DNA of 64,000 nucleotides from Hymenobacter canadensis. Its GTDB lineage: Bacteria; Bacteroidota; Bacteroidia; Cytophagales; Hymenobacteraceae. Each line of letters begins with the position of its first letter. Positions within the stretch are counted from its first letter, which is position 1. The DNA is taken from NCBI RefSeq assembly GCF_027359925.1, contig NZ_CP114769.1, positions 62,001 to 126,000 on the forward strand, read 5' to 3'. Of the stretch, positions 1 through 22,985 are shown in pieces. The notes under the pieces are model-generated. The model saw nothing but the letters and a program-made list of their open reading frames with translations. It searched no databases and had not been told where the DNA came from. Both the position numbers and the translations under genes were made by a program.

Positions 1-17
1 CCGTTTGACTGTTCACC
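1..17 (+). repeat. cassette repeat, partial copy at window edge
   Basis: The first 17 bases match the right half of the repeat copy at 12975-12991 (accgtttgactgttcac). The window therefore starts inside a repeat, and the array continues to the left. Confidence 0.8.
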
Positions 18-43
18 TTTCTTTTTTCTGACAATCCTGAAGC

Positions 44-466
44 ATGCGTAAGCAAGGATTCCTTACTCAGTTCCTCTACCTTATTCTCTACGCAGCAAGT
101 GGGCTCTTCACCTTGTTCTGGGCCAGTGTCTTCTTTCTCGGGTCGGAGGATACCGTTTTCCGGCAGATTGAAGAGCACGGATTGTTGGTACTGTTTTTAA
201 AGCGATTTCTAGGTTTTGCGATGCTGGGCGGACTGGTCGCCTTAGGCATCACGGTGCCTAGTATCCTGCTTCAGGTTTGGCGGGAGCAAAAGGATTGGTC
301 GGAATCCAAAGAGGTATTTAAACGGGCCCTTTTCTCGCAAGTACTTTGTGCGTTGTTCGGTAGTGCGTTTTTCTCCCTTTCGGTAAGGGACAGTATACCA
401 GATGTAAAATCTGCCATTGACCACTCCCTGATTAGTGAAGAAGCAAGCATGCCACTTCGGTCTTAA
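44..466 (+). CDS. small membrane protein, cassette gene (copy 1 of 2)
   Basis: This 140-aa protein has about three hydrophobic segments (roughly residues 7-33, 46-75 and 94-112) and a hydrophilic tail, so it is probably an inner-membrane protein. I recognise no family. It is one cassette of the array: a repeat ends just before it and another begins 22 bases after its stop. A near-identical copy lies at 13019-13441, differing at only a few residues such as LGITV/LSITV and REQKD/RKQKY. Nucleotide identity runs through both flanks into the repeat core, so the whole cassette was copied. By context it could be an immunity protein, but nothing in the sequence proves this. Confidence 0.75.
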   Translation: MRKQGFLTQFLYLILYAASGLFTLFWASVFFLGSEDTVFRQIEEHGLLVLFLKRFLGFAMLGGLVALGITVPSILLQVWREQKDWSESKEVFKRALFSQVLCALFGSAFFSLSVRDSIPDVKSAIDHSLISEEASMPLRS

Positions 467-487
467 ATCCAGTCTACACACTCTTCA

Positions 488-515
488 TTCCGCTATTCGG
501 ACCGTTTTCTTGAAC
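488..515 (+). repeat. cassette repeat copy
   Basis: Contains cggaccgttttcttgaac. It is the downstream boundary of the duplicated 140-aa cassette. Identity with 13463-13480 ends at ggaccgttt. Confidence 0.85.
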
Positions 516-559
516 ACAAGGTGAAGAGTTATTACTTGCCTTAACACCTGCTCTTGTCT

Positions 560-1027
560 ATGCACCCCGACACCATTGCCGCCAACCTTCTGCTTCAACG
601 GGCGCTTGGCCGCTCGGCTGTCGAAAGTTTTGGCCTATCTCACCAGATTCACTTTCTGGAGTTTCGCGACGACGAGCCCCACGATCACGTACTGTCCATT
701 GACACGGACATGTCCTCAAACGTCAGCTTCGACGGGGACCCTAGGCTCACGGCAGACGAACAACGGCTGCTGGTCTTTAACCGGGTTAACCTGCGCACCG
801 TGACCCGGGTGGTCTGCGATGATGAAGCCAACCTGTTTCTCGACTTTGACAACGGGGTCCAACTCCGATTTGCCGGCACCTCGGCGGAGGGGTATGAACC
901 CTGGCAACTAGGCAGTCGGATGCCCTTGGACGAGCCCGGCGGGTACTTGCTTATCGCCCAGTGCAGCGGTGGGTATGCTATTTGGGATGGGTCAGCGACG
1001 CCTACATCCCACCCTGAAAAGGTCTAA
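560..1027 (+). CDS. hypothetical cassette protein
   Basis: A 155-aa soluble, acidic protein with no signal peptide. The ATG at 560 is preferred to an upstream in-frame TTG at 554. The C-terminal half looks beta-rich, with alternating hydrophobics around LFLDFDNGVQLRF and YEPWQL. I recognise no family with confidence. It is the sole gene between the repeats at 488-515 and 1047-1074. A leftward promoter-like tattacttg precedes it at about 530. The product of 10495-10968 has a similar size and a comparable FxxGxxLxLF-type strand, so the two might be distant relatives. That is only an impression. Confidence 0.7.
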   Translation: MHPDTIAANLLLQRALGRSAVESFGLSHQIHFLEFRDDEPHDHVLSIDTDMSSNVSFDGDPRLTADEQRLLVFNRVNLRTVTRVVCDDEANLFLDFDNGVQLRFAGTSAEGYEPWQLGSRMPLDEPGGYLLIAQCSGGYAIWDGSATPTSHPEKV

Positions 1028-1046
1028 CTCACTCAGTTGCTTTCCT

Positions 1047-1074
1047 CGTCTAGCTTCCGACGGTTTGGCTAAAC
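1047..1074 (+). repeat. cassette repeat copy
   Basis: Contains tccgacggtttggctaaac, the repeat core with small changes (GACGG for GACCG, AAAC for GAAC). It separates a single-gene cassette from the four-gene LytS/LytTR unit. Confidence 0.75.
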
Positions 1075-1205
1075 TAACGAGGCAAAAAGAGATTTTACCA
1101 CTGACCAGCGGGAACGTGTCTAGCCGTTCTAACCACAGAAGTGCGAATCTGCATTCAGCATCATAAATACGATCTCGTTCGCCGGTTTTCTGTATTTTGA
1201 CTCCC

Positions 1206-4934: not shown

Positions 4935-4955
4935 ATGGAGGACAGTGCAATACGA

Positions 4956-4982
4956 ATCGTCGTTTCGACCCTTTGGTTGAAC
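4956..4982 (+). repeat. cassette repeat copy
   Basis: Reads cgtttcgaccctttggttgaac, the downstream boundary of the four-gene unit. Confidence 0.85.
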
Positions 4983-4996
4983 TTCTGTGTCGTAGG

Positions 4997-5227
4997 TTAT
5001 TCCTCCCGCACCGTGATATAGCCTTCCGTCCACTCGCGCCTATCTAGCTCATAAGTAGCAATCTCTAACCCTGCTGGCTGGTCTCTAAAGCCTGGCTGCG
5101 TTAAGCTGGCATTTAAGGCTTCTTCAGCCTTCAGGTAGCTGGAATAGACTCCTAAGAGTTTGACATCCTCGCCGCCTGGCAAATCCTCGTCTTCGTGAGT
5201 ATGCCATAAGAGGAACACGTGTGTCAT
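4997..5227 (-). CDS. small soluble protein, DUF7336-like
   Basis: A 76-aa protein resembling the small family with the layout VFLLWHTHE..., KLLGVYSSYLKAEEAL, PGFRDQPAGLEI and WTEGYI. I recall this family as DUF7336. Its biochemical role is unknown to me, and members are often found near immunity or toxin islands. It is a single-gene cassette inserted against the repeat orientation, with its stop 14 bases from the repeat at 4956-4982. Confidence 0.65.
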   Translation of the reverse strand: MTHVFLLWHTHEDEDLPGGEDVKLLGVYSSYLKAEEALNASLTQPGFRDQPAGLEIATYELDRREWTEGYITVREE

Positions 5228-5259
5228 GACAGAGCGCTGTTTGTTTTAGGGTAATGTAA

Positions 5260-5292
5260 GGCTCGTTTTGCTAAAGGCCCTTCTTAGGGAAT
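5260..5292 (+). repeat. degenerate cassette repeat copy
   Basis: Reads gctcgttttgctaaagg followed by cccttcttagggaat. Left arm and centre spacing fit, but the right arm is eroded. It lies where a repeat is expected between two cassettes. Confidence 0.5.
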
Positions 5293-5317
5293 GAGGCATA
5301 GAAATTTGCGACGGTAG

Positions 5318-5325
5318 TAGCTTTG
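5318..5325 (+). promoter_or_regulatory. Bacteroidota -7 promoter box
   Basis: tagctttg is an exact TAnnTTTG box four bases before the ATG of the 5329 gene. It suggests that this cassette carries its own promoter and a near-leaderless transcript. No convincing -33 TTTG box sits at the usual distance. Confidence 0.5.
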
Positions 5326-5328
5326 CGC

Positions 5329-5742
5329 ATGGGTCGAGCAATAGAACACACCACCATAAACGAACAGACTGCTGAGTTATTAGAAAGGGAAGCCATTCCC
5401 CAGTTAGTGTTCCTGTTTGGAAACGCGGGGACATCAGAATCAACTCTGTTGGAAGTGCTCTCCGGTGGCCTCGATACTCTTCTCTACCATCAACCTGAGA
5501 AGGCAGCGTATTCTTTCCGCATCTGGCTTAATAACCCTGTCTGGAGTAGCAACGACACTACACACTTGGCAACCTTTTTCGAGCGAGTCGCCGAACGACT
5601 AAACACATACAAGGGTCTACAGCAGCAGTTCATTGCGGAGATATTACGTGCTCCTACTTATCAATCTAATTCTCTGCGGCCGCGGGGTGATGATGAAGGT
5701 CGATTGTTTCCTCTTTTCAATCTTGCCATAGAACTTCGGTGA
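5329..5742 (+). CDS. hypothetical cassette protein
   Basis: A 137-aa soluble, probably all-helical protein. I recognise no family. The ATG at 5329 is chosen over a TTG at 5323 because that TTG lies inside the promoter box. The last codons (gaacttcggtga) already lie in the left part of the following repeat, so the gene ends within the recombination module. This tight packing is seen repeatedly in the array. By size and context it could be a helical immunity protein. Confidence 0.65.
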   Translation: MGRAIEHTTINEQTAELLEREAIPQLVFLFGNAGTSESTLLEVLSGGLDTLLYHQPEKAAYSFRIWLNNPVWSSNDTTHLATFFERVAERLNTYKGLQQQFIAEILRAPTYQSNSLRPRGDDEGRLFPLFNLAIELR

Positions 5743-5760
5743 TCGACCGTCTTCCTGAAC
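5731..5760 (+). repeat. cassette repeat copy overlapping a gene end
   Basis: Reads gatcgaccgtcttcctgaac. The left part includes the stop codon of the preceding gene. Confidence 0.75.
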
Positions 5761-5778
5761 ACATCCTACATACAGACG

Positions 5779-6997: not shown

Positions 6998-7025
6998 CGT
7001 TTAGCTTGCCACCCTTTTGGTGAAC
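6998..7025 (+). repeat. cassette repeat copy
   Basis: gcgtttagcttgccaccctt followed by ttggtgaac. It is preceded by tgaacgggct, which also precedes the copies at 11012 and 16195, so the repeat has an extended left flank in a subset of copies. Confidence 0.85.
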
Positions 7026-7051
7026 GTTTTTAACAGCACAGACTCCCGCTC

Positions 7052-7552
7052 ATGGACGAACAAGACAACCTTTTATGGTCAAAGCAGCAATGGCGACATA
7101 CGGGAACCGTTACCTTGGAAACGGCTTCTGCCGCGGAAATAGCTCGTTTTTCCCAGGTGCACCAGGTCCAGCTGCCCGCCGATTTAGTCCGCTACTTTGC
7201 CCTCGTGAACGGGACTGCGGGCACCTATGACAAGGAGTTCTTCTGCTTTTATAGCTTAGCGGAAGTACAAGCAGTTGCTGAGCGGTTTGGCGATTACCAC
7301 GGGGCCCCTAAGTACAGCGACCTGCTCCACACTTGGTCGGAGCACCCGACGTTTTATGCCTTCGCCGATTACATGATTCACTCCTTGGCTTACGCCATTC
7401 GGCTGGATGCCCAAACGACCGCCACCAACCCCGTGTTCGTGCTCTGCGGGGGTATCTATCGGCCTATTGCGAAAAGCTTTACGGAATTTCTAGCGCTTTA
7501 CCGACGGGATTCGCCCCTGCTGTATATGAGCGATGAGGAGTTGGCGGAGTAA
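7052..7552 (+). CDS. SMI1/KNR4 (SUKH) family immunity-like protein
   Basis: A 166-aa protein with the SUKH superfamily layout: an N-terminal helix with SAAEIARFSQVHQVQLPADL followed by VRYFALVNGTAG, then FYSLAEVQAVAERF and FYAFADYMIHSLAYAIRL. It closes with a C-terminal SFTEFLALY helix. SUKH proteins commonly neutralise polymorphic toxins as cytoplasmic immunity proteins. No toxin gene is adjacent, so this would be an orphan immunity gene. It is a single-gene cassette between the repeats at 6998-7025 and 7563-7594. Confidence 0.8.
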   Translation: MDEQDNLLWSKQQWRHTGTVTLETASAAEIARFSQVHQVQLPADLVRYFALVNGTAGTYDKEFFCFYSLAEVQAVAERFGDYHGAPKYSDLLHTWSEHPTFYAFADYMIHSLAYAIRLDAQTTATNPVFVLCGGIYRPIAKSFTEFLALYRRDSPLLYMSDEELAE

Positions 7553-7562
7553 ATCAGTTCGC

Positions 7563-7594
7563 TCGTTTTAACGATTCGGACCGTTTGGCCGAAC
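7563..7594 (+). repeat. cassette repeat copy
   Basis: tcgttttaacgattcggacc followed by gtttggccgaac, starting about 10 bases after the SUKH stop. Confidence 0.9.
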
Positions 7595-8157: not shown

Positions 8158-8188
8158 CTCGTTTTGATTTCAGACCGTTCAAATAAAC
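8158..8188 (+). repeat. cassette repeat copy
   Basis: ctcgttttgatttcagaccg followed by ttcaaataaac. The right arm diverges but length and position fit. Confidence 0.75.
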
Positions 8189-8737: not shown

Positions 8738-8769
8738 CGTTTTCGGTTATTCAGACCGTTTCGATGAAC
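8738..8769 (+). repeat. cassette repeat copy
   Basis: acgttttcggttattcagac followed by cgtttcgatgaac. It is the left boundary of the cassette duplicated at 22.5-22.97 kb. The two copies become identical from accgtttcg onward. Confidence 0.9.
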
Positions 8770-8798
8770 AACGAGGGCAATAATTGTACGTTCGCCTC

Positions 8799-9179
8799 AT
8801 GGAACCCGAAACCGCACTCTTAGCTGCCATCCTACGCCAATCCCCCGAAGGTTCGCTGTGGCGCCTCTCGAAGGATTCATGGCAAGAGCTGCCACGTGTG
8901 CTCGGGCCGGACTTACTCCACCCCGGCGAAACATTCTGGTGGCACGTACGCATCACGACCGCAAATCGCCAGCGGCTACTGGCCGTAGCGGAGGCCCACG
9001 AGTTACCTGACAAAGTGGTGCATATGTCCCTCACCACGGCCCAAGGCCGCACGTTCTTTCGCGGCGAAGACCACTTGGATACCATCATTTGTGACTTCGA
9101 TTTTCAGGGTCTGAGAGACATTTGCGGTAAGTTTCCCCGGCTGGAGCAAAGCATTGTCAAGATGGAAGGCCCTTTGTAA
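8799..9179 (+). CDS. hypothetical cassette protein (copy 1 of 2)
   Basis: A 126-aa soluble protein. The ATG at 8799 is preferred to a TTG at 8784. It combines beta segments (FWWHVRITTANRQRLL, KVVHMSLTTAQGRTFF) with acidic turns. No family is recognised. A second copy with two substitutions (KFP/KFS and EGPL/EAPL) lies inverted at 22549-22929. The repeated stretch runs from inside the left repeat to inside the right repeat, so it moved as a cassette. An immunity role is plausible only from context. Confidence 0.7.
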   Translation: MEPETALLAAILRQSPEGSLWRLSKDSWQELPRVLGPDLLHPGETFWWHVRITTANRQRLLAVAEAHELPDKVVHMSLTTAQGRTFFRGEDHLDTIICDFDFQGLRDICGKFPRLEQSIVKMEGPL

Positions 9180-9200
9180 ATGCTCCTTACTTTGAATTAC

Positions 9201-9229
9201 GCGTTCAGAGCACCACCCTTTCGCTGAAC
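9201..9229 (+). repeat. cassette repeat copy
   Basis: gcgttcagagcaccaccctt followed by tcgctgaac. Identity to the inverted cassette copy ends at caccacc, marking the right exchange point. Confidence 0.9.
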
Positions 9230-10468: not shown

Positions 10469-10500
10469 CTCGTTTTGATCGAATCACCGTTTCCCTAAAC
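10469..10500 (+). repeat. cassette repeat copy overlapping a gene end
   Basis: ctcgttttgatcgaatcacc followed by gtttccctaaac. The stop codon of the converging minus-strand gene (10495-10497) lies in its right arm. Confidence 0.85.
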
Positions 10501-11011: not shown

Positions 11012-11040
11012 GCGTTTACCTTCGGACCCTTTGGCTGAAC
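11012..11040 (+). repeat. cassette repeat copy
   Basis: gcgtttaccttcggaccctt followed by tggctgaac. It is one of the best matches to the consensus and has the extended left flank ctgaacgggct. Confidence 0.92.
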
Positions 11041-11418: not shown

Positions 11419-11449
11419 CTCGTTTCGCCGAATCACCGTTCTGATAAAC
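11419..11449 (+). repeat. cassette repeat copy
   Basis: ctcgtttcgccgaatcaccg followed by ttctgataaac, with a well-kept left arm and an eroded right arm. Confidence 0.85.
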
Positions 11450-11843: not shown

Positions 11844-11871
11844 GCCCGCTTAATTTCGAGCGCCCCTTCAC

Positions 11872-11903
11872 GGCCGGATGCCCTTGGGACCGTTTTCTTG
11901 AAT
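11872..11903 (+). repeat. cassette repeat copy, left arm eroded
   Basis: cggatgcccttgggaccgtt followed by ttcttgaatt. The centre and right side are conserved. Confidence 0.65.
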
Positions 11904-11917
11904 TGCACATTTGACCT

Positions 11918-12367
11918 ATGGCCATGAAGAATACGACCCGTGCGGAATTAGCTGCCAACATCAAACAGCACCGGTGGTTGGTGTTCAACATCATGGAAGG
12001 CAACGAAACCGAACCGGCCTTCTCTTACACAGTGGGTTTGTTCGAGACGTTTGGCCACCCCGAAGTAGTGATTTCCGGCGTGAAGCAGGAGGCTGCCATG
12101 GGCATTCTCAACGAAATTGGTCACGGTGTCGCTGAAGGGCTGAAGCGAGAACCTGGGGTTCTCTACGACGATATCTTGGAGGGCTACTCCTGTGTATTTA
12201 AACCCGTTTCTTCGCAGAAGTACGAGGCATACTTTGGCCGAGCGTTAATCTTTTATGAGGGGCCTACCTTTCCGATGATGCAATGCGTCTGGCCCGATGC
12301 CCTAAAACGGTTTCCCGGCGAAGCGGGCTATACCCTTTCCACCCAGGAAGTATTATTCGAGCAGTAG
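11918..12367 (+). CDS. DUF4262 domain protein
   Basis: A 149-aa protein matching the DUF4262 family across its length: HRWLVFNIMEGNETEPAFSY then TVGLFETFGHPEVVISG, with a later PTFPMMQCVWPDALKRFPGE. The biochemical role is unknown. Members are frequent in orphan immunity-type neighbourhoods. The ATG at 11918 or 11924 could be used. It is a single-gene cassette between the repeats at 11872-11903 and 12370-12404. Confidence 0.85.
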   Translation: MAMKNTTRAELAANIKQHRWLVFNIMEGNETEPAFSYTVGLFETFGHPEVVISGVKQEAAMGILNEIGHGVAEGLKREPGVLYDDILEGYSCVFKPVSSQKYEAYFGRALIFYEGPTFPMMQCVWPDALKRFPGEAGYTLSTQEVLFEQ

Positions 12368-12369
12368 AA

Positions 12370-12404
12370 CGCTTGTTTTGGCGAATCCGACCGTTTCGCC
12401 AAAC
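12370..12404 (+). repeat. cassette repeat copy with near-perfect dyad
   Basis: The arms gttttggcgaa and tttcgccaaac flank tccgaccg. This copy shows the dyad of the repeat most clearly. It starts three bases after the DUF4262 stop. Confidence 0.9.
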
Positions 12405-12919: not shown

Positions 12920-12965
12920 TTGTGTTCGTAGACCGTAACGCTCATTACTTTGAGCAGCGCGCGTG

Positions 12966-12991
12966 CAGCGTTCTACCGTTTGACTGTTCAC
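12966..12991 (+). repeat. cassette repeat copy
   Basis: gcgttctaccgtttgactgt followed by tcac. Its right half equals the first bases of the window. Confidence 0.85.
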
Positions 12992-13018
12992 CTTTCTTTT
13001 TTCTGACAATCCTGAAGC

Positions 13019-13441
13019 ATGCGTAAGCAAGGATTCCTTACTCAGTTCCTCTACCTTATTCTCTACGCAGCAAGTGGGCTCTTCACCTTGTTCTGGGCCA
13101 GTGTCTTCTTTCTCGGGTCGGAGGATACCGTTTTCCGGCAGATTGAAGAGCACGGATTGTTGGTGCTGTTTTTAAAGCGATTTCTAGGTTTTGCGATGCT
13201 GGGCGGGCTGGTCGCCTTAAGCATCACGGTGCCTAGTATCCTGCTTCAGGTTTGGCGGAAGCAAAAGTATTGGTCGGAATCTGAAGAGGTATTTAAACGG
13301 GCCCTTTTCTCGCAAGTACTTTGTGCGTTGTTCGGTAGTGCGTTTTTCTCCCTTTCGGTAAGGGGCAGTATACCAGATGTAAAATCTGCCATTGACCACT
13401 CCCTGATTAGTGATGAAGCAAGCATGCCACTTCGGTCTTAA
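13019..13441 (+). CDS. small membrane protein, cassette gene (copy 2 of 2)
   Basis: A 140-aa membrane protein that is a near-identical copy of the product of 44-466, with a few substitutions. The copied block starts in the repeat before it and ends in the repeat after it at ggaccgttt, where the two loci diverge (tcttgaac versus agctgaac). The two copies lie 12,975 bases apart in the same orientation. That spacing exposes the region between them to homologous deletion. Confidence 0.75.
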   Translation: MRKQGFLTQFLYLILYAASGLFTLFWASVFFLGSEDTVFRQIEEHGLLVLFLKRFLGFAMLGGLVALSITVPSILLQVWRKQKYWSESEEVFKRALFSQVLCALFGSAFFSLSVRGSIPDVKSAIDHSLISDEASMPLRS

Positions 13442-13462
13442 ATCCAGTCTACACACTCTTCA

Positions 13463-13490
13463 TTCCGCTATTCGGACCGTTTAGCTGAAC
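13463..13490 (+). repeat. cassette repeat copy
   Basis: ccgctattcggaccgtttag followed by ctgaac. It is the right border of the second 140-aa cassette. Confidence 0.9.
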
Positions 13491-13673
13491 AAGTAATTGT
13501 CACTGCTCGTGGCCTATTTGCAGACACTTGCCCGCACGTCTGTTGAACCTCGAATAGTAGACCAACCCGGGAGGCTAGGAGTTGCTGCGCTTTTTCCAGG
13601 GCTATAACCTTGCAAAATCCAGGTAAAACAGGCTCACATTTCCTTCCTTATCATCCATTCTCTCTTAAGTGAA

Positions 13674-14408: not shown

Positions 14409-14460
14409 TAAAGTATAGTTTTATCAAGAGTTCAGGAAGAACCCTCGCTTAATAAATGGA

Positions 14461-14491
14461 GCGTGTTTACCGTTGGACCGTTTCCGTGAAC
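14461..14491 (+). repeat. cassette repeat copy
   Basis: gcgtgtttaccgttggaccg followed by tttccgtgaac. Confidence 0.9.
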
Positions 14492-14582
14492 ACATCACTA
14501 GTGCTTGGATTGGTCTATTTCGTAGCTTGCTCGCACAAATAAGCGGAATACCCCGCTTTGCTTACCCCATACTCCGGCAAGG

Positions 14583-14894
14583 ATGGAAACGCTGACTTGG
14601 CTGCAAGACTGGTACCGGGCCCGGTGCGATGGGGAATGGGAATTCCGTGAAGGCATCAAGCTGCTTTCCACGAGCAACCCGGGCTGGAGCGTGGAAATCA
14701 ACGTGTCGGATACCCCTTTAGAGGACGCATACCTTCCCTTGACTAAGTTCGACCGGTCGGAGAGTGATTGGTACGGCTACTTCCTGGAAGACGCCTTGTT
14801 TGTCGGCTCCGGCGACCCGGCAAAGCTGGAAGTCATTTTGCGTGTGTTTCGCAACCTGATAGAAAACGGCATCCCTTCGCCATCCAACGCCTAA
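14583..14894 (+). CDS. Imm53 family immunity protein
   Basis: A 103-aa protein matching the immunity protein 53 pattern: LTWLQDWYRARCDGEWEFREGI, then a NPGWSVEINVSDTPLED block and an SDWYGYFLEDALFVGSGDP block, closing with a helix. Imm53 proteins neutralise polymorphic toxins in the cytoplasm. No toxin is encoded nearby, so it is an orphan immunity cassette. A tagcttg-type box lies about 60 bases upstream. The gene stops two bases before the next repeat. Confidence 0.75.
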   Translation: METLTWLQDWYRARCDGEWEFREGIKLLSTSNPGWSVEINVSDTPLEDAYLPLTKFDRSESDWYGYFLEDALFVGSGDPAKLEVILRVFRNLIENGIPSPSNA

Positions 14895-14895
14895 A

Positions 14896-14929
14896 CGCTC
14901 GTTTCGCTATCCTGACCCTTTGGGTGAAC
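14896..14929 (+). repeat. cassette repeat copy
   Basis: cgctcgtttcgctatcctga followed by ccctttgggtgaac. Confidence 0.92.
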
Positions 14930-14933
14930 GCGT

Positions 14934-15479
14934 CTACTCTAGTGCTAAGTCGTATTCGCGGGGTGAAGAAGCGTTGGTGACCAAACGCCATCCGAGCCGG
15001 AGTTTCTCTTCCGCTTCGGGGCCAACCCAGAACATGCCGATTCGGCGGCTACGCTGTTTGATGAGTTTGACCAACGCCCTAAATAATAGGCCAGAGTAGG
15101 AGACGCGCGAGAAGGTTGTTACAAAACCCGCTACCAGTACGGCCTCCCCAAACTGGCCGCTGGGTTTGAAACGGGCTAGTTCTGGATTCAGCAGCTGGTC
15201 GACGGGATACGCGTAACCGCCCTTGCGTAAAGAGATTTCTCGTACGACAATGCCCTCGTCTGGATGAGTGAGCAAGTAGTCAGGAGAATGAATCCAATCC
15301 CCAATGGCTAAGTGCCTCAACGATTCTGCCACCAGGGAAGAAATGGCCGGGACATTGGGTACAGTAGACGTGCCCGTGCAGTAATAAGACCGGTTATGGT
15401 GTGCTTCAAAGGACTCGAGTACCGCTACTTGTTCGGCAGGAGTGAGAAAGAAGTAGAAGCTGTGGCCGCGAGTTGACAT
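14934..15479 (-). CDS. hypothetical cassette protein
   Basis: A 181-aa soluble protein. The ATG at 15479 is preferred to a TTG at 15488. It begins MSTRGHSFYFFLTPAEQVAV and ends REYDLALE. The start is typical of small immunity-like proteins that open with a strand and then a helix (FFLTPAEQVAVLESFEAH). No family is recognised. Its stop lies five bases from the repeat at 14896-14929. It is inserted against the repeat orientation. Confidence 0.65.
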   Translation of the reverse strand: MSTRGHSFYFFLTPAEQVAVLESFEAHHNRSYYCTGTSTVPNVPAISSLVAESLRHLAIGDWIHSPDYLLTHPDEGIVVREISLRKGGYAYPVDQLLNPELARFKPSGQFGEAVLVAGFVTTFSRVSYSGLLFRALVKLIKQRSRRIGMFWVGPEAEEKLRLGWRLVTNASSPREYDLALE

Positions 15480-15500
15480 AGGCCTCAAAGTAAGTAAATC

Positions 15501-15532
15501 CTACTTTCGCCAGAAGCACCGTTTGGCTGAAC
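15501..15532 (+). repeat. cassette repeat copy
   Basis: tactttcgccagaagcaccg followed by tttggctgaac. Confidence 0.9.
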
Positions 15533-15575
15533 TTCGGAAAGAGCTATCTATTGACACTTGATAATAGTAAGGAGT

Positions 15576-16163
15576 ATGCTCAAAATTGACCAAGAGCAAT
15601 TTTTTGCCAGTCTAAAGATTACGCAAGCCTATTGTGCCCAGCAGCTACAACAGCCGTGGCAGAGTGAATTTTTGGCACTACGCACCAGCTTACAGCCAGT
15701 TTATCAGAATCAGCAGTGGTTTATAACCGCACGGGGAGTAAAGGGTGAAGCAGCGAGGATAGGACTATCGGAGTGGCTACGCCATACTGACCCCTATCAT
15801 TCAGCGCGCTTCGCTGAGGTGTTTGCCCAACAGCTTGCGTATAAGTCGGCAGCAAGCGCTGAGTTAACGCGACAGGTTTTCTATCCAGGCCGGATACTGG
15901 TCGCCGAATATGGTTCGAACATTCCCGACGGCGCGGTAGAAGTAGAGACAGCTGGTTTTTTCGACGAGTGTGACCTGCCACCAATTGATACCTGGTTTTA
16001 CAATGGCTACAGCGAGCCTGAAGGAGGCATTCTATTTGCCTGGATTCCGGAACAGTTTCTGGGCCTTGCTCAACTGGCGATAGACATGCAATTTTTGGGC
16101 ATTTTGCACTGGTTCGTTACCCCTCAAGGGTGGGAGTGTGACCCGTACGCATCACACCCGTAG
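15576..16163 (+). CDS. hypothetical cassette protein
   Basis: A 195-aa soluble protein. The ATG at 15576 has a purine-rich aaggag a few bases before it, unusual here, so it is preferred to the TTG at 15558. No family is recognised. The middle is helical and the C-terminal third (GFFDECDLPPIDTWFYN, GILFAWIPEQFLGLAQLAID) looks like a capped beta domain. It is a single-gene cassette. Confidence 0.65.
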   Translation: MLKIDQEQFFASLKITQAYCAQQLQQPWQSEFLALRTSLQPVYQNQQWFITARGVKGEAARIGLSEWLRHTDPYHSARFAEVFAQQLAYKSAASAELTRQVFYPGRILVAEYGSNIPDGAVEVETAGFFDECDLPPIDTWFYNGYSEPEGGILFAWIPEQFLGLAQLAIDMQFLGILHWFVTPQGWECDPYASHP

Positions 16164-16194
16164 GTAACATAGGCCTCCTTCAATTGAACGGATC

Positions 16195-16223
16195 GCGTTT
16201 ACCTTCGGACCCTTTTCTTGAAC
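16195..16223 (+). repeat. cassette repeat copy
   Basis: gcgtttaccttcggaccctt followed by ttcttgaac, with the extended left flank ttgaacggatc. Confidence 0.92.
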
Positions 16224-16274
16224 AGTAAAGGGGAGGGGTCCACTCTAGGAAAAGTGGTAGCTTTCCCGCCCGTT

Positions 16275-16925
16275 ATGCTTCACCAACCTGCCCTGCCCAC
16301 TGCTCAAACGCCTCGCGGGCTTCGGCTAACCTGCCTGCTGGGCTTGCTGGGGGCCCAGTTCCCCGGCTGGGCGCAAGAAGCCCCGACGCCCTTGCATGCC
16401 TTCTTGCAGCAGCACTACGACAGCACCATCGTCTACCACGTCGGGTCCTCGTGGTACAACGCGCCGAACTATATCATCTTGGCCAAGCACCGGGGCGGGG
16501 TGGACGCCTTCACCTATGCCAACCCCTACCGGGACGGACTAGGCCACTACTACCCCGGCCAGCTCGTCCGCCACTTTAGCAAGGAGGACACCCGATTTCG
16601 GGCGACGCGGCCCGATACCAACCGCTACCTGGTGCCCCGCGCCGGGGACCCAGCGGAGCTGCGGCGCGCCTGGCAGCAGCTGCACCCTACGCGGTTCTGG
16701 TCCGTACGCGGCGACGGGGAGCGGCCCGCTACACCGGCGTCCTGCTTCATCGACGACGGGCCCGAGCACGTGTTTTACCTGCTTGACAAACGCGCCATCC
16801 GGGTCGTCCGCTTTTACGCCCCGCAAGAGTTGCAAGACTGTGAGGATGCGAGGCAGGACCCGGGCCGAGCGCAGGCTTTGGCCACGATTCAAGTATTGCA
16901 AGCATTGATTCCGCGTGTACGATAA
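16275..16925 (+). CDS. secreted hypothetical cassette protein
   Basis: A 216-aa exported protein. The ATG at 16275 gives a signal peptide (LRLTCLLGLLGAQFPGWA/QEA), so the upstream frame from 16218, which starts at the edge of the repeat, is rejected. The mature part has many aromatics (YHVGSSWYNAPNYIILAK, YRDGLGHYYPG). No family is recognised. It is a single-gene cassette whose stop lies four bases before the next repeat. Confidence 0.65.
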   Translation: MLHQPALPTAQTPRGLRLTCLLGLLGAQFPGWAQEAPTPLHAFLQQHYDSTIVYHVGSSWYNAPNYIILAKHRGGVDAFTYANPYRDGLGHYYPGQLVRHFSKEDTRFRATRPDTNRYLVPRAGDPAELRRAWQQLHPTRFWSVRGDGERPATPASCFIDDGPEHVFYLLDKRAIRVVRFYAPQELQDCEDARQDPGRAQALATIQVLQALIPRVR

Positions 16926-16928: not shown

Positions 16929-16961
16929 CTCGTTTTGGCGAATCCGACCCTTTCACTGAAC
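16929..16961 (+). repeat. cassette repeat copy
   Basis: ctcgttttggcgaatccgac followed by cctttcactgaac. The left arm matches the copy at 12370. Confidence 0.92.
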
Positions 16962-17610: not shown

Positions 17611-17632
17611 CTCGTTTCGCTTTTTGGACCGT
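17611..17632 (+). repeat. cassette repeat copy truncated by IS
   Basis: ctcgtttcgctttttggacc followed by gt, then the IS1182-type terminal repeat. The right arm is missing on this side and is not found on the far side of the IS. Confidence 0.85.
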
Positions 17633-19247
17633 GGCTGTTGCAGAAGTGCTAGCCGGCAAGTTGCTGAATTCGTAGCAAGAGGATGCAAGGCAGGAAAGAT
17701 TTCACCGACAAGGTCGTGACTCGTTTTCGGCTCTCCGAACGGGTTCCGACTCATAACCTGTACCGGCGGCTGGCCGAGCTGGTCGACTGGCGTTTTCTTT
17801 ACGAAGAGACCAAAGCGCTCTACAGTCACACGGGCCAGCCCTCGCTCGACCCGGTGGTGTTTTTCAAGCTCGTGCTCGTGGGCCGGCTGGAAAACCTGAT
17901 CAGTGACCGGCGCTTGGTCGAGCACTGTGCCCTGCGGCTCGATATCCTCTTTTTCCTGGGCTACGAAGTGGATGAGGAGTTGCCTTGGCACTCGACCGTG
18001 AGCCGCACCCGCCAGCTATTTCCAGCCGCCGTATTTGAGCGCCTGTTTGACCACGTCTTTGCCCAGTGCGTAGCCCAGGGGCTAGTGGCCGGCGACACGC
18101 AAGCCGTCGACTCCGCCCCGGTCAAGGCCAATGCCTCGCTGGAAGCGGTGCTGGAAAAGGGGCAGGTGAGCGCCCGCGGCCCGTTGCTGGTCACAGGTGA
18201 GCTGGTGGCCACGGCGCCTGCGGCTCACCTGGTAACGGCCCCGGCGCACCAGCTGCGGAATCTGGCCACGGCCCAGGCTCGGCGACAGGGCACGCAATCG
18301 GGCGCCTTGGGCGCACAGCATGACAAAGCCCGATTGCTGAGCAACAAGACCCATTATAGCCCCACCGACCCGGATGCGCGCATTTCCATTAAGCCCGGCA
18401 AAGCCCGGGCGCTCAATTACCTCTGCAGCCTAGCCGTGGACACGGCCCACGGCGTGATCAGCCACGTGCAGGCTGATTTCGCCGATAGCCGCGATAGCCT
18501 GCACTTACCCCGCCTGCTCACTGGGCTGCAGCAGCGGTTACGAGCGCAGCAGCTGCGCATGCATGAGCTGCTGGCCGACGCGGGCTACGCCAACGGCTTG
18601 AATTACGCCCTGCTCGAAGCCCAGCAGGTCACGGCCTGGATTCCGGTCTTTGGCCAATACAAGGCCACTATCGAAGGCTTTACCTACGATGCTGAGCAGG
18701 ACGTTTACCACTGCCGGGCGGGCAAGGCGCTGCCGTTTCGCAAGTGCGATATGACGGCCGACGGCACCGGGCTAAAAATCTACTGGGCCACCTGCTCGGA
18801 CTGCCAGCAGTGCCCGCTCAAGTCTACCTGCATACCCGGGGCCAAGCGCAAGCAGCTCACCCGCACGCTCTACGACGCACCCTACCGCCGGGCTTGGCAG
18901 CGCCAGCAAAGCCGACAGGGACAGCGCATGCGCCGGGTGCGCCAAGGCACCGTCGAGCCCGTCTTCGGCAATCTGATCCAGCACTACGGCCTGCGCCGGA
19001 TGAACGTGCGTGGCCAGGCCGGGGCCCACAAAACCATGCTGCTCACAGCCGTGGCCTACAACCTGAAAAAGCTGCTCAAGCACCGTGTCAACCGGCAAGT
19101 GAGCCTGGCCATGGCCCTGCCACAGCCGATATTAGCCCTTATTAGGCGCTCGCAGGGCCCAACTGGCCGACCTTGACGCACAGATGAGACCTCGGACAGC
19201 AGCTGGCAGGAAAAAGAGGGTAACGAAACGAGTTCTGCAACAGCCAC
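17631..19247 (+). mobile_element. IS1182-family insertion sequence
   Basis: The element is about 1.6 kb, bounded by inverted ends gtggctgttgcagaa (17631-17645) and ttctgcaacagccac (19233-19247). It carries one transposase gene. No convincing target duplication is visible, and the flanks do not rejoin. The left flank is a forward cassette repeat. The right flank is the inside of a minus-strand gene, and all repeats beyond are inverted. The element therefore marks a rearrangement joint, not a simple insertion. Confidence 0.85.
17683..19176 (+). CDS. IS1182-family transposase
   Basis: A 497-aa DDE transposase of the IS1182/IS4-like group. The N-terminal domain reads VPTHNLYRRLAELVDWRFL and HTGQPSLDPVVFFKLVLVG. 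The catalytic part includes DTQAVDSAPVKAN and LLADAGYANGLN. The zinc-finger-like insert is CSDCQQCPLKSTC, and the closing region GTVEPVFGNLIQHYGLRR carries the catalytic Glu. It appears intact and full-length. Confidence 0.92.
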   Translation: MQGRKDFTDKVVTRFRLSERVPTHNLYRRLAELVDWRFLYEETKALYSHTGQPSLDPVVFFKLVLVGRLENLISDRRLVEHCALRLDILFFLGYEVDEELPWHSTVSRTRQLFPAAVFERLFDHVFAQCVAQGLVAGDTQAVDSAPVKANASLEAVLEKGQVSARGPLLVTGELVATAPAAHLVTAPAHQLRNLATAQARRQGTQSGALGAQHDKARLLSNKTHYSPTDPDARISIKPGKARALNYLCSLAVDTAHGVISHVQADFADSRDSLHLPRLLTGLQQRLRAQQLRMHELLADAGYANGLNYALLEAQQVTAWIPVFGQYKATIEGFTYDAEQDVYHCRAGKALPFRKCDMTADGTGLKIYWATCSDCQQCPLKSTCIPGAKRKQLTRTLYDAPYRRAWQRQQSRQGQRMRRVRQGTVEPVFGNLIQHYGLRRMNVRGQAGAHKTMLLTAVAYNLKKLLKHRVNRQVSLAMALPQPILALIRRSQGPTGRP

Positions 19248-20081
19248 GAATGTCCTCTTTGTATGACTAAAAGAGAAAATGTCTTCTGCGAATGTTGCTA
19301 GTAGGCCAGTAGGAATATAGGTGAATTCCTCCATTCCCGTCGTCACTTCTTGGCGTTTCTTGAGCGTGAAATGCCGCCGGGACATCAGGCGATTGTCATC
19401 TCCATAACGAAACTCCACGCCTGTTGTCTCTAGCTGCTCTATGGAGGTCTCCTTGCTTTTCGCTCCCTTAGGGTTGTATTCAGTCAGTTGCGTAAAAAAG
19501 AGCTTGCCTTTGTCAAAAAGCTGCTCTTTGATGGGCCGGTTCTGCTCATCATAGGCGGTGCGTTTGAGCCGCCCGGTAATGCCGCCACCGTCAATCGTGG
19601 ATTCCACTTCATTGCCTCGCTTATCATAGACAAACGTTTCGTCACTGACGAGCTGCCCTGTTGGGTCAACCAGTGTTTTGCGCGCTAATTGCCCGACAGC
19701 ATTATACTCCAGGTGCTGTACTTCCTTTCCTGTATACCCATCGGTTACAGAGACTAGCTTCTGGCTTTCATTATAGCGATAGCGCCAAAAAGTTGTATCC
19801 TTAATGGACGAATGCGTGCGCTTAGAATAAAGTACTTGATTGTCTGCGTTGAATTGCTGGACGAGGGAGTGCTTGATGGTCTCGACTAAAAAACCATCGT
19901 CGGAGGAAGCGATGGTATTGCCGTTTAGATCATACCGTTCAGTAGCGGCTAGCCTACCCGCTAAATAGATGTTCGCCGTGGTTATGTGCTGGGCTTTAAG
20001 AAGCGACGCGTCGTTCGTCTGAGCAAATGCAAAGGCGGGCAGAATAGCAAACACGCAGAGTAGCTGCAGCTTCGTTTTCAT
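19248..20081 (-). pseudogene. secreted YD-repeat-like protein, 3' end lost at IS
   Basis: The open frame starts at ATG 20081 with a signal peptide (LQLLCVFAILPAFAFA/QTN). It continues for about 278 codons with RHS/YD-like repeats (ERYDLNGNTIAS, WRYRYNESQKLVSVTDGYTG, LEYNAVGQLARK, FVYDKRGNEV, TEYNPKGAKSK). It then runs into the IS end, so the native C-terminus is missing and the read-through frame to 19056 is IS sequence. It was one cassette of the inverted half of the array. Any toxin or carrier role is unproven. Confidence 0.75.
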
Positions 20082-20132
20082 AAGGTAATCCTGAAGGGAA
20101 GTAGGCAATGGCAGCCAAAGGTAGAAGCCCAC

Positions 20133-20162
20133 GTTCACCTAAACGGTCCTGCCGTGAACGCG
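20133..20162 (-). repeat. cassette repeat copy, inverted orientation
   Basis: Reverse strand reads gcgttcacggcaggaccgtt followed by taggtgaac. It is the first copy right of the IS and is inverted relative to all copies left of it. Confidence 0.92.
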
Positions 20163-20214
20163 CTCTGTTTAGTCGAAGGAGCGATAAATTTGGTGCTATT
20201 CTAACTTCTCCGGT

Positions 20215-20676
20215 TCATTGATGGCGCAGTGCTTGCGATTGCGCCCGGTATTGCTGGAGCAGACGCGTGAGGTGTGAGGCACTAATCGCCAATTCGCGAA
20301 TATTCAGCTCGCGCACTTCGTTTCCTGCCCGGTAGTAGAGAATTGTATCCGTGCCCCGGCCGAGCCGAACCTTTCGCACTTCTTCGTCCCGAATGGTTTT
20401 CCATACATCTACTGGTGCTGAGCCGAGTTGTATTCCCCGTTCGCTGATAGTCAATTGGGGCCGATTATTCCCTAAGAGCCAGAGCTGGCGGCCGATAACA
20501 ACGAAACTCCCCAGTCCAATCAAGAAAATGAAGGGCGCCCCGAATCCCAAAGGCCTGACATTCCACAGCTGGTGCACGGCAGTAGCTACAAAAGCTACGC
20601 ACACGACCAAGTAGCTTAATAGGTTAACAGTAGAGTAGCGAATGACAGATTCAGGCGGTAAGGACTCGTTTTCCAT
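20215..20676 (-). CDS. small membrane protein, cassette gene
   Basis: A 153-aa protein with two adjacent membrane segments (about residues 20-40 and 48-68) and a cytoplasmic PH-like C-terminal domain (LTISERGIQLGSAPVDVWKT, then VRKVRLGRGTDTILYY). The ATG at 20676 avoids the repeat, which the longer frame to 20808 would cross. This layout is common in small bacterial two-TM proteins with a pleckstrin-like domain. No function is assigned. It is a single-gene cassette. Confidence 0.65.
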   Translation of the reverse strand: MENESLPPESVIRYSTVNLLSYLVVCVAFVATAVHQLWNVRPLGFGAPFIFLIGLGSFVVIGRQLWLLGNNRPQLTISERGIQLGSAPVDVWKTIRDEEVRKVRLGRGTDTILYYRAGNEVRELNIRELAISASHLTRLLQQYRAQSQALRHQ

Positions 20677-20736
20677 TAGAGGCGGGGTTCGTTCTAGTGA
20701 CCGAGAAGCTAAAGCGAATGGGCTTAACCAAGTCTT

Positions 20737-20765
20737 GTTCAGCGAAACGGTCCGCAGGTAAACGC
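20737..20765 (-). repeat. cassette repeat copy, inverted orientation
   Basis: Reverse strand reads gcgtttacctgcggaccgtt followed by tcgctgaac, an excellent match to the consensus. Confidence 0.93.
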
Positions 20766-20798
20766 GGCGATTCAGCTCAAGGAGGGTTATTTTTAGGG

Positions 20799-21620
20799 AT
20801 GCGAACACGCCTTCTTTTCACCGTTGGGTTCTTGTTGGCCCGGCTGCCGCCTGAGAGTCAGGCACAGGGTAGTTGTGTGTCCGGCCACCTCGTAGAGGCC
20901 TCGTCGCAGGCGCCGTTGCGCTTTGCGGCCGTGCGGCTGCAACGGGACGGGGCGGGGGCCGTGGCCGACGAGCACGGCTACTTCGAGTTGGAAAGCAGCG
21001 CGGCCTGGGTCCAGGATTCCCTGGTGGTCTGGAGCGATGACGTGCGCGCGGCCCATTGGGTAACCAGCGGCCACGCGGTGGGCCTACGCCTGGCCGTGGC
21101 CCTGCCGCCCGGTCGAGAGGGGAAATGGGGTTACGTTGGCACCCAGCATGCTTTTCGGGTGAAGAATGATTCCCTCGCGCGCGGCGGTACCCTACGCACG
21201 GCCTCGTTTTACATTGGCGCGGGGGCCCTGCCGCGCAAGGTGTTTCGCGTGCGCCTGTACGACGTGGCAGGCAACAGGCCCGGGGTGGATGTGCTCACGG
21301 AAAATGTTCTCATGCTGGCTTGGCGAGAAAATCAGTGGTTCACGGTAAACCTGGCTCCTTATCACTTGGCCGTACCGGATGCGGGCTACTTCATCGCCTT
21401 GGAGTATTTTCCGGATGAGGGCATACGCAATTCGTATTTTGACTCCATACTGGTCGACTACATGCCCACCGGGCCATTCATGTGGCCGGTGTGTGAGGCG
21501 AATACGCGCAATGTCTGGAGCTACGTCATCGGCACGGGCTGGAAGCTGTTACCGCTGGATAACGGGCTGTATGGCCGCTACGGCGCTATGATAAAGCTGG
21601 AAGTAGACCCGCCGAAATAA
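20799..21620 (+). CDS. secreted protein with carboxypeptidase-regulatory-like domain
   Basis: A 273-aa exported protein. The ATG at 20799 gives a signal peptide (LLFTVGFLLARLPPESQA/QGS), and the longer frame from 20697 crosses the repeat. Residues 25-100 form a CarboxypepD_reg-like beta sandwich (GHLVEASSQAPLRFAAVRLQ, DEHGYFELE), typical of Bacteroidota surface proteins. The rest is a second beta-rich domain of unknown type. It is a single-gene cassette. The plus-strand gene lies opposite to the inverted repeats. Confidence 0.75.
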   Translation: MRTRLLFTVGFLLARLPPESQAQGSCVSGHLVEASSQAPLRFAAVRLQRDGAGAVADEHGYFELESSAAWVQDSLVVWSDDVRAAHWVTSGHAVGLRLAVALPPGREGKWGYVGTQHAFRVKNDSLARGGTLRTASFYIGAGALPRKVFRVRLYDVAGNRPGVDVLTENVLMLAWRENQWFTVNLAPYHLAVPDAGYFIALEYFPDEGIRNSYFDSILVDYMPTGPFMWPVCEANTRNVWSYVIGTGWKLLPLDNGLYGRYGAMIKLEVDPPK

Positions 21621-21655
21621 CGACACGGCCTTGAGTAGCCAGTGCATCGAACGGA

Positions 21656-21684
21656 GTTCACGCAAACGGTGGCAAGGTAAACGC
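21656..21684 (-). repeat. cassette repeat copy, inverted orientation
   Basis: Reverse strand reads gcgtttaccttgccaccgtt followed by tgcgtgaac. Confidence 0.92.
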
Positions 21685-21775
21685 GCTGTTCAAATGAAGG
21701 AGGCCAAACTTTGGCGAAACCATTGATCAGATTTGGCAATCCATTTAATTCTTTCATTCGTTACTCTAACTCAAA

Positions 21776-22156
21776 ATGAAAATTTTTATAACACTTTTTC
21801 TTGCTAATTTATCTCTATTAACTGGGTGTAACAAGTTGACACCATGCGATGTTTATAAAAAACGGTTCCTTAATAAACAAGCTTACCTGGTAATTAGCGA
21901 CAGAGGAAATAACGGAAATGATTTGCACCTAAAAGGATACAATCCGATAACTAGTCAGCGCGCTGAATATAAAGGAATGGACGGATTGTATATATATTTA
22001 AGAAATAGTATAGATGTTGGAGATACTCTGGAAAAGAGAATTAATGAACCTAATTTTATAGTTAGAAAAAAGCGTTATAATATTAGTATAGAGTATAGCT
22101 GTAATGGAAAATCATACGATTTTATTGTACCTGACACTTTGCGTAAAACAAAATAG
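21776..22156 (+). CDS. AT-rich small lipoprotein, cassette gene
   Basis: A 126-aa protein with a lipoprotein signal (TLFLANLSLLTGC; Cys near residue 18). No family is recognised. The gene is markedly AT-rich with AAA, ATA and TTA codons, unlike the GC-rich cassettes around it, which points to recent transfer from a low-GC donor. Upstream it is bounded by the inverted repeat at 21656-21684. The downstream repeat is not recognisable. Confidence 0.7.
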   Translation: MKIFITLFLANLSLLTGCNKLTPCDVYKKRFLNKQAYLVISDRGNNGNDLHLKGYNPITSQRAEYKGMDGLYIYLRNSIDVGDTLEKRINEPNFIVRKKRYNISIEYSCNGKSYDFIVPDTLRKTK

Positions 22157-22214
22157 TGTGAACAAGTCAATTATAGTATTTGCAGTAATAACTCTTTAGT
22201 GAACACCACTTTAT

Positions 22215-22531
22215 AGGCCCAATGGACCAACCAAGGTCCAGGTGGTCAATCACTCTCCTCTGTAACGTTCCTTAATGCCAATTCTGGTTGGGCGTGTGGT
22301 TCTGCGGGGAGCTTGTAAAAGACCAGTGACGGCGGCACGACATGGCAATACCTGTTTTATTTTGCTACGCCAAGACTGCTCAATAGGCTGCGGGCAGTAG
22401 GGAATCCTTTCCAGCGACAAGTGCTGGTCATAGTCGATACGCCGCTTAATCCGCAGCCCACCGCAACCTATATCAGCACCAATACGGGTACATTTCAGGT
22501 ACAGGATTACGGTGGTGCTCTGAACGCGTAA
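22215..22531 (+). pseudogene. Ycf48/BNR-repeat secreted protein fragment
   Basis: Reading one plus frame gives WTNQGPGGQSLSSV, then TFLNANSGWACGSAGSL, a stop, and KTSDGGTTWQYL. This is the Ycf48/BNR propeller repeat used by secreted Bacteroidota proteins. The frame continues to a TAA inside the truncated repeat at 22511-22528. It lacks a start, carries an internal stop, and has unrelated sequence before it, so it is a decayed fragment that invaded or replaced part of the array. Confidence 0.65.
22511..22528 (-). repeat. cassette repeat, half copy, inverted
   Basis: Reverse strand reads acgcgttcagagcaccacc, identical to the left half of the copy at 9201-9229. The right half is replaced by the end of the Ycf48-like fragment. 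Confidence 0.85.
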
Positions 22532-22548
22532 TTCAAAGTAAAGAGCAT

Positions 22549-22929
22549 TTACAAAGGGGCTTCCATCTTGACAATGCTTTGCTCAAGCCGGGAAAACTTA
22601 CCGCAAATGTCTCTCAGGCCCTGAAAATCGAAGTCACAAATGATGGTATCCAAGTGGTCTTCGCCGCGAAAGAACGTGCGGCCTTGGGCCGTGGTGAGGG
22701 ACATATGCACCACTTTGTCAGGTAACTCGTGGGCCTCCGCTACGGCCAGTAGCCGCTGGCGATTTGCGGTCGTGATGCGTACGTGCCACCAGAATGTTTC
22801 GCCGGGGTGGAGTAAGTCCGGCCCGAGCACACGTGGCAGCTCTTGCCATGAATCTTTCGAGAGGCGCCACAGCGAACCTTCGGGGGATTGGCGTAGGATG
22901 GCAGCTAAGAGTGCGGTTTCGGGTTCCAT
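22549..22929 (-). CDS. hypothetical cassette protein (copy 2 of 2)
   Basis: A 126-aa protein with two substitutions from the product of 8799-9179 (KFS for KFP, EAPL for EGPL). It lies in the inverted half of the array together with its flanking half-repeats. The copied DNA starts and stops exactly in the repeat cores. No family is recognised. Confidence 0.7.
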   Translation of the reverse strand: MEPETALLAAILRQSPEGSLWRLSKDSWQELPRVLGPDLLHPGETFWWHVRITTANRQRLLAVAEAHELPDKVVHMSLTTAQGRTFFRGEDHLDTIICDFDFQGLRDICGKFSRLEQSIVKMEAPL

Positions 22930-22958
22930 GAGGCGAACGTACAATTATTGCCCTCGTT

Positions 22959-22985
22959 GTTCATCGAAACGGTGGTTCAGAGGCC
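22959..22985 (-). repeat. cassette repeat copy, inverted, last in array
   Basis: Reverse strand reads ctgaaccaccgtttcgatga followed by ac. It is identical to the copy at 8738-8769 from accgtttcg on and different before that point. No further copies are seen to the right. Confidence 0.85.

Follow-up and report, generated by a model that had tools for sequence, protein, structure and literature searches.

Integrons are the textbook case of stored and shuffled gene cassettes, and the consensus of attC is RYYYAAC ... GTTRRRY. Tyrosine recombinases work with overlaps of 6-8 bp, serine recombinases with a 2-bp core, and members of the resolvase/invertase family of the latter resolve or invert DNA. 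Two further systems of small gene modules are relevant here. According to PMC12247911, recombinase-associated acquired interbacterial defence (rAID) clusters are defined by a predicted tyrosine recombinase adjacent upstream and by co-oriented short genes with a guanine-plus-cytosine (GC) content under 41%, and PMC13141974 states that the site orientations of Acinetobacter dif modules must alternate. We analyzed a window of 64,000 nucleotides from Hymenobacter canadensis, bases 62001-126000 of contig C3 (NZ_CP114769.1; 143,069 bp), in whose first 22,985 positions copies of a short imperfect dyad separate small genes. We estimate a probability of roughly 60% that this region is a mobile cassette array whose units are exchanged at ACC by a trans-acting recombinase, presumably a small serine recombinase.

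The genome comprises a 4.5-Mb contig, C1, and three smaller contigs (C2, 377,776 bp; C3; and C4, 38,680 bp), of which C3 is plasmid-like because it carries a Rep3 initiator at C3:54656-55606. The full array spans C3:56751-84970, with ~37 sites, and begins 5.2 kb left of the window (window position -5249); the part inside the window (1-22985) holds 28 site copies, matching the count of about 28 in an earlier sequence-only reading of this DNA. At 16 bits or more, window 1-23000 yields 23 sites compared with a mean of 0.05 over 20 dinucleotide shuffles, a ~460-fold excess, and none were found in window 26000-64000 or in two 20-kb control stretches. The same matrix, for which C3 alone served as training, detects 34 sites in one C2 stretch and 23 in another, compared with 0.20 and 0.15 in shuffles, and the further arrays of this genome are two on C2 and a short one on C4. 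A site model without structure terms, built without 3 of the 35 junctions (56751, 60388 and 84510) and without the sites at 5748 and 17630, gave at least 86 matches at E <= 1 in the same genome when the best 150 of 744 candidates were scored, so that the counts are lower bounds; a single weak match lies on C1 and the others on C2, C3 and C4.

At each site the 3' end of a cassette meets the 5' end of its successor, and the two together form a complete imperfect dyad. Its right half, the cassette start, is short, (G/C)TTTNNNT(G/A)AAC, and its left half, the cassette end, is longer and more variable and closes with ACC, usually GACC or CACC; the best conserved stretch is ACC(G/C)TTTNNNT(G/A)AAC, with conservation at ACC partly ascertained because the matrix itself selects for ACC. 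A pool of 240 sites, from which 13 with insertion-sequence ends were set apart, left 227 for comparison. The dyad described earlier, CGTTTACCTTC-GGACCG-TTTNNCTGAAC, fits 88 of the 227 left halves (~4 in 10). The remaining left halves are mixed, many being a second form that resembles CTCGTTTTGCGATTCGGACC; at least two forms can be distinguished, one with an additional hairpin-like stretch such as CTCCTTCAACTGAACGGAGC.

Comparison among the arrays establishes a cassette system, in which cassettes move as units. From 50 alignments other than insertion sequences, 16, all inside a tandem gene on C4, were removed; among the 34 remaining shared array segments of at least 88% identity, 40 of the 68 query ends fall no more than 15 bp from a core, many of them precisely at -3 and +4; positions within 25 bp of a core make up 3.5% of the array. 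Cassettes 98-100% identical are common to C2 and C3, and near-identical ones recur on other plasmids and in other species beside different neighbours, with homology ending between ACC and (G/C)TTT. Among named records, the Hymenobacter yonginensis plasmid NZ_CP115397.1 shares a cassette. Similarly, at a chromosomal place 3' of rsmG, genome G084 has three cassettes and its sister species G074 a single different one of ~0.35 kb, the differing cassettes being enclosed by an identical left half (GGCGTTTCACAAAGGACC) and an identical right flank; one of the three may be a fusion, because a decayed site there scores 9.6. The expectation that related strains would show the same repeat with different genes in between is borne out by this platform and by the cassette shared with H. 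yonginensis.

An alternative explanation would be that the sites are terminators or repetitive extragenic palindromic (REP)-like elements and that shared cassettes result from homologous recombination or insertion-sequence activity. It draws on the position of the sites, which sit between genes close to stop codons, and on the repeated presence of an insertion sequence at the core, but whole cassettes occur with unrelated neighbours and with breakpoints at the core, both within and between species, breakpoints scattered across the flanks are not the predominant pattern, the listed sites lack a T-run and hairpin stability is low. We therefore consider this explanation scarcely credible.

The point of exchange was located with 695 candidate junctions (at least 9 bits), among which 29 pairs have just the left cassette in common and 44 just the right one. 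In the same-left pairs, identity persists to position -1 (1.00) and is at background at 0 (0.52 versus 0.55). In the same-right pairs, it is at background at -5 (0.32/0.33) and near background at -4 (0.52/0.46), and position 0 shows 0.75 versus 0.55. Stricter sets at 95%, with insertion-sequence-end left halves removed, comprise 16 same-left and 28 same-right pairs: 10 of the 16 are free of mismatches left of 0, and 12 of the 28 right of -4, with the rightmost mismatch at 0 in 2 and no divergence in 1. The comparison thus shows exchange to be mostly confined to ~3 bases at ACC (-3 to -1), a span that cannot be narrowed further because ACC is near invariant, and a minority of junctions suggests wider changes or later mutation. 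An exchange window of ~3 bp is unsuited to a tyrosine site with a 6-8 bp overlap.

The sites within the window are listed below, each with the two positions that flank its core.
1..14, + strand: site, core 2/3, left half beyond the window's left edge
488..515, + strand: site, core 503/504
1047..1074, + strand: site, core 1062/1063
4955..4982, + strand: site, core 4970/4971
5733..5760, + strand: site, core 5748/5749
6998..7025, + strand: site, core 7013/7014
7567..7594, + strand: site, core 7582/7583
8161..8188, + strand: site, core 8176/8177
8742..8769, + strand: site, core 8757/8758
9202..9229, + strand: site, core 9217/9218
10473..10500, + strand: site, core 10488/10489
11013..11040, + strand: site, core 11028/11029, class A, CGTTTACCTTC-GGACCC-TTTGGCTGAAC
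11422..11449, + strand: site, core 11437/11438
11876..11903, + strand: site, core 11891/11892
12377..12404, + strand: site, core 12392/12393
12962..12989, + strand: site, core 12977/12978
13463..13490, + strand: site, core 13478/13479
14464..14491, + strand: site, core 14479/14480
14902..14929, + strand: site, core 14917/14918
15505..15532, + strand: site, core 15520/15521
16196..16223, + strand: site, core 16211/16212
16934..16961, + strand: site, core 16949/16950
17615..17632, + strand: site split by an insertion sequence, left half plus GGACCGT
20133..20160, - strand: site, core 20144/20145
20737..20764, - strand: site, core 20748/20749
21656..21683, - strand: site, core 21667/21668
22499..22526, - strand: site, core 22510/22511, right half decayed
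22959..22986, - strand: site, core 22970/22971, with an outer (platform-like) half, CTCGGCCTCTGAACCACC, also found at C2:148032

The first 23 sites are in + orientation, one of them split by the insertion sequence at 17630, and the last five, from 20144 on, in - orientation. The arrays of this genome on C2 and C3, and likewise those of G114 (C102 and C151) and G007 (C16 and C20), tend to begin with a + run and continue with a - run oriented toward it.

Small serine recombinases of the genus combine a PF00239 match over the cut-off with a weak PF07508 tail, and their nearest NCBIfam models are Mpi (master DNA invertase; for most) or XisF, all below cut-off. The 26 genes examined come from 20 chosen regions, mostly on array-bearing contigs (one, L232, is without such a frame), and from six fetched earlier. 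At 18 of them lies an AACG-NN-CGTTT palindrome with a variable centre, 30-63 bp upstream of the called start in 17 cases and inside the called frame in one; 19 of the 26 real windows reach 13 of 16 pairs, compared with 1 of 1040 shuffled windows. Its centre is AC/GT in 3 of the 18, and the array sites share with these palindromes the inner TTT, usually CGTTT, with AC in the centre. For instance, contig C8 of G051 presents an integron-like order, with a serine recombinase gene at 11176-11856 on the - strand (226 aa), an AC palindrome at 11913 and eight + sites at 12478-16744. In G067, 47 bp separate the end of the sole PF00239 gene from the first site of the array that follows.

We infer the act of recombination itself and also, because such genes in the genus carry AACG-NN-CGTTT, similar to the inner part of the sites, just ahead of the start codon and the G051 gene, palindrome and array stand in this order, a serine recombinase as its agent; the ~3-bp exchange and a core resembling the palindromes beside such genes favour a serine recombinase acting in trans. 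This recombinase would swap partners at the ACC core, and cassettes would thereby be excised, inserted, inverted and moved among arrays, plasmids and species. The enzyme would be a small member of the resolvase/invertase family that cuts at the 2-bp AC core, and it appears the likeliest, albeit unproven, driver of the arrays. Tn3-type resolvases were rejected by appearance as a common enzyme.

The site is widespread in the genus: 66 of 120 Hymenobacter genomes, H. canadensis included, match the site model at E <= 0.1, with 59 candidates scored per genome and the best matches listed, so that site counts are lower bounds. Across the order, 22 of 390 genomes match at E <= 0.02, 20 of them in Hymenobacter (again including our genome) and 2 elsewhere, with one weak match each. 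Where the contig reaches, arrays end 3' of various genes, among them rep and genes like parA, rsmG and those of TonB receptors (these last three names were read from sequence alone). The flanks outside 25 array ends have no gene in common, although some contigs extend as little as 308 bp there. At the rsmG loci of the best 30 of 118 genomes matched, a site lies on the 3' side in 5 and on the 5' side in 1. AC-centred palindromes occur 27-47 bp past rsmG in G053, G116 and G004, the one in G053 being clear (11 of 13 pairs), and such palindromes in some relatives may, on weaker evidence, represent empty attachment sites. Whether Hymenobacter possesses an independently evolved counterpart of the integron, in which small serine recombinases would capture, store and shuffle gene cassettes at AC-core dyads, with platforms 3' of rsmG, rep and parA, we regard as an even proposition.

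Several observations weigh against the proposed serine-recombinase exchange. Recombination is deduced here from sequence comparison. When the set is widened without filtering and insertion-sequence copies are included, no more than 95 of 516 alignment ends fall within 25 bp of a core, still above the 3.5% background. The junction pairs are not independent, and 13 of the 28 strict same-right pairs are mismatched at +1 to +13, a few of them in blocks, so exchange may at times have reached beyond the core. The centre of the palindrome differs from AC/GT in 15 of 18 serine recombinase genes, array-site right arms (TTTNNNTRAAC) exceed palindrome arms (TTTNNAAAAC) by one base, and the left halves of cassettes mirror the right halves poorly. 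The G051 array does not start in the palindrome, which is intact and lies 0.57 kb from the first site. The AC palindromes past rsmG in G116 and G004 (9 and 8 pairs) fall within the shuffle range (at least 9 in 100 of 600 shuffled windows), and four further rsmG loci have palindromes of 10-12 pairs with centres other than AC. Most of the fetched serine-recombinase regions have no adjoining array, and the family as a whole does not track arrays: it is present in 87 of 120 genomes, including ones without a detected site, is missing at E <= 1e-25 from the array-rich G009 and G044, and occurs in the genome of the window only as a truncated copy.

A dedicated tyrosine recombinase, supplied in trans from the chromosome and perhaps acting by single-point, one-strand exchange as integron integrases do at attC, is a rather unlikely reading. 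Near single-point exchange at a conserved ACC recalls the G^TT of integrons, cassettes resemble attC in having a longer 3' half and a short 5' half, and the 11-6-11 layout is as noted in the sequence-only reading. Class A left halves, moreover, show a pairing signal between -37/-33 and -25/-17 (best z 5.3). Against this, covariation between the site halves is not convincing (best z 3.1 over 156 comparisons), and folding of both strands, which had been suggested as a check, is slightly better than in shuffles (mean z -0.10 to -0.39) with no clear strand bias. The C3 array contains 0 attC pairs (7/7 complementarity, 35-140 bp apart), compared with a mean of 0.7 and a maximum of 4 in 40 shuffles, in keeping with the earlier remark that the RYYYAAC partner is missing. 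With folding slightly better than in shuffles, no convincing covariation and no attC consensus, attC-type folding was rejected as the probable nature of the site. In addition, only XerC and XerD look orthologous among the PF00589 genes of G000 and G114. None of the six PF00589 genes in our genome reaches the integron-integrase cut-off, and one reaches that of XerD. The proposed look to the left of the window finds the array extending to C3:56751 with no PF00589 gene near it, the one on C3 lying 53 kb away.

That distant gene encodes a 320-aa tyrosine recombinase (C3:2858-3820), and the possibility that this plasmid resolution enzyme or its relatives drive the arrays is very improbable. It resides on the plasmid of the array, with a relative on the array-bearing C2, and its family is present in 102 of 120 genomes, yet it is absent at E <= 1e-20 from the array-rich G067 and G114, and both genes read have an unrelated palindrome upstream. 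It was accordingly rejected as an enzyme shared by the arrays and is regarded as one of general plasmid function; the linked tyrosine recombinase suggested earlier is not supported. The upstream palindrome, CCGATAA-N7-TTATCGG (C3:2772-2792 and C2:349259-349279), is probably the own site of those recombinases. On the 3' side of the plasmid integrase, C3:3883-3912 resembles a site, but at most 1 of 11 relatives read (320-aa frame) shows this stretch. A 410-aa integrase adjoining arrays in G067 and G032 was also rejected; in 10 other genomes the 10 kb 3' of it, to the extent that the contigs cover them, contain no site.

The housekeeping XerC/XerD pair might instead move cassettes as it does the dif modules of Acinetobacter Rep_3 plasmids, a precedent that agrees with the Rep3 plasmid, with the lack of a recombinase common to array ends, and with XerC and XerD being the sole tyrosine recombinases apparently shared by two array-rich genomes. 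The sequence GTCTTATAATTTATATTATGTTAA, found exactly once per genome and on the chromosome in 8 of 8 genomes searched, is likely the Hymenobacter dif site. It scores -19.5 bits on the site matrix, below ~96% of random C1 34-mers, and array sites were rejected as dif copies on this score. The long co-oriented site runs, whereas dif modules must alternate, and an exchange of ~3 bp rather than an identical 6-bp spacer further make this explanation improbable. A small serine recombinase acting at ACC remains our preferred reading.

Regarding the content of the array, exactly one open reading frame (ORF) of at least 60 aa is present in 30 of the 36 bounded cassettes, none in 1 and two or more in 5, in agreement with the earlier impression of nearly always one gene per repeat; genes run in both orientations, as also reported, with 20 of the 30 single genes in the direction of the site and 10 opposite. 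The median bounded cassette is 599 bp and the GC fraction of the array 0.559. A Pfam scan covered 35 array proteins, the transposase excepted, from 44 listed ORFs (a list that takes in the transposase and the outer ends on either side). No match at E <= 0.01 was obtained for 23 of the 35, while 9 exceed the curated cut-off and 3 fall below it. Families over the cut-off are SUKH-1, Imm53, DUF4262, DUF805, colicin-immunity-like and RHS repeat, of which SUKH-1, Imm53 and the colicin-immunity-like protein represent immunity-like genes. One long cassette encodes a histidine kinase, a response regulator and PD40 proteins, each over the Pfam cut-off. An Imm53 relative (80%) lies on a contig of Hymenobacter sp. 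UV11, with no site in the 4 kb examined. Selected cassettes and neighbouring features are as follows.
3..503, + strand: cassette encoding a 140-aa protein, with a 98% copy at 12978-13478 beside other neighbours
4971..5748, + strand: cassette also in H. yonginensis plasmid NZ_CP115397.1, core to core, 91.6%
7014..7582, + strand: cassette with a SUKH-1 (SMI1/KNR4) protein at 7052-7552
8758..9217, + strand: cassette encoding a 131-aa protein, with an inverted copy at 22511-22970
11892..12392, + strand: cassette with a DUF4262 protein at 11918-12367
12978..13478, + strand: second copy of the 3-503 cassette
14480..14917, + strand: cassette with an Imm53 protein at 14583-14894, C2 copy 100% over 429 bp
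17631..19248, + strand: 1.6-kb insertion sequence in a site core, with a 497-aa DDE transposase at 17683-19176
22511..22970, - strand: inverted copy of the 8758-9217 cassette, 98.7% identical
23112..23918, - strand: IS4/IS5-type transposase adjoining the array's right end
24074..24541, + strand: truncated small serine recombinase remnant 1.1 kb past the array's right end, a relative of the G051 gene

The insertion sequence at 17631-19248 (ends ...CTGCAACAGCCAC) recurs twice on C2, in copies 99.8-100% identical. This 1.6-kb DDE element was observed at array-site cores in several genomes (L083-L084, L093 and L101), and 13 of the 240 pooled sites bear such an end, as if the element targets site cores. 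Beyond the array, window 25000-35000 is a 10-kb stretch of mostly 31-37% GC in a 55% plasmid and encodes a 728-aa protein whose start resembles that of an ABC exporter of the peptidase type; near 30046-31765 lie several ORFs that are all 87 aa long. On C4, positions 18700-24150 (L021-L022) hold long internal tandem repeats, 88-91% alike, probably inside a large gene.

Full-text searches of open-licence papers returned, among the matches listed, no description of this system, consistent with the repeat having been called undescribed, and no serine recombinase that builds cassette arrays. The rAID clusters resemble the present array in their Bacteroidota host, in short-gene arrays that include SUKH and other immunity-like families, and in a repeated intergenic motif; they differ in that the array has no linked or adjacent tyrosine recombinase, mixed gene orientation and a GC content of 56% rather than under 41%, resides on a plasmid and has cassettes that move singly, so the proposal of a rAID counterpart is not sustained. 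With the dif (pdif) modules it shares a Rep3 plasmid, small modules between short dyad sites and no linked recombinase, whereas its sites are unlike dif, co-oriented runs of 23 and 5 occur in the window, ~3 bp are exchanged instead of an identical 6-bp spacer, and tens of cassettes make up an array. The likeness to sites of resolvase/invertase-family serine recombinases lies in the palindrome, the inner CGTTT/AACG and the 2-bp centre.

The likeness to integrons is the most extensive in function and supports the earlier description of the units as integron-like cassettes: arrays of small, mostly single-gene cassettes (30 of 36), each with its own site, core-to-core mobility, shuffling within and between replicons, and hotspot-like platforms. 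Unlike in integrons, there is no attC consensus and no integron integrase in the genome, sites occur in both orientations with 20 genes along and 10 against the site, and the crossover would be central in a short dyad with a probable serine-type core. Since the definitions of integron, rAID cluster and dif module each fail at least one feature, the array stands outside all three; although integron-like in the way it works, it is no integron, and looks like a separate gene-swapping system. Its site, unrelated to that of the integron, is found in about half of the genomes of the genus, on plasmids and chromosomes. If this reading is true, the integron design would seem to have arisen more than once, and the system could yield a new cassette-exchange tool and a large store of mobile genes still to be read, many of them immunity-like or unknown.

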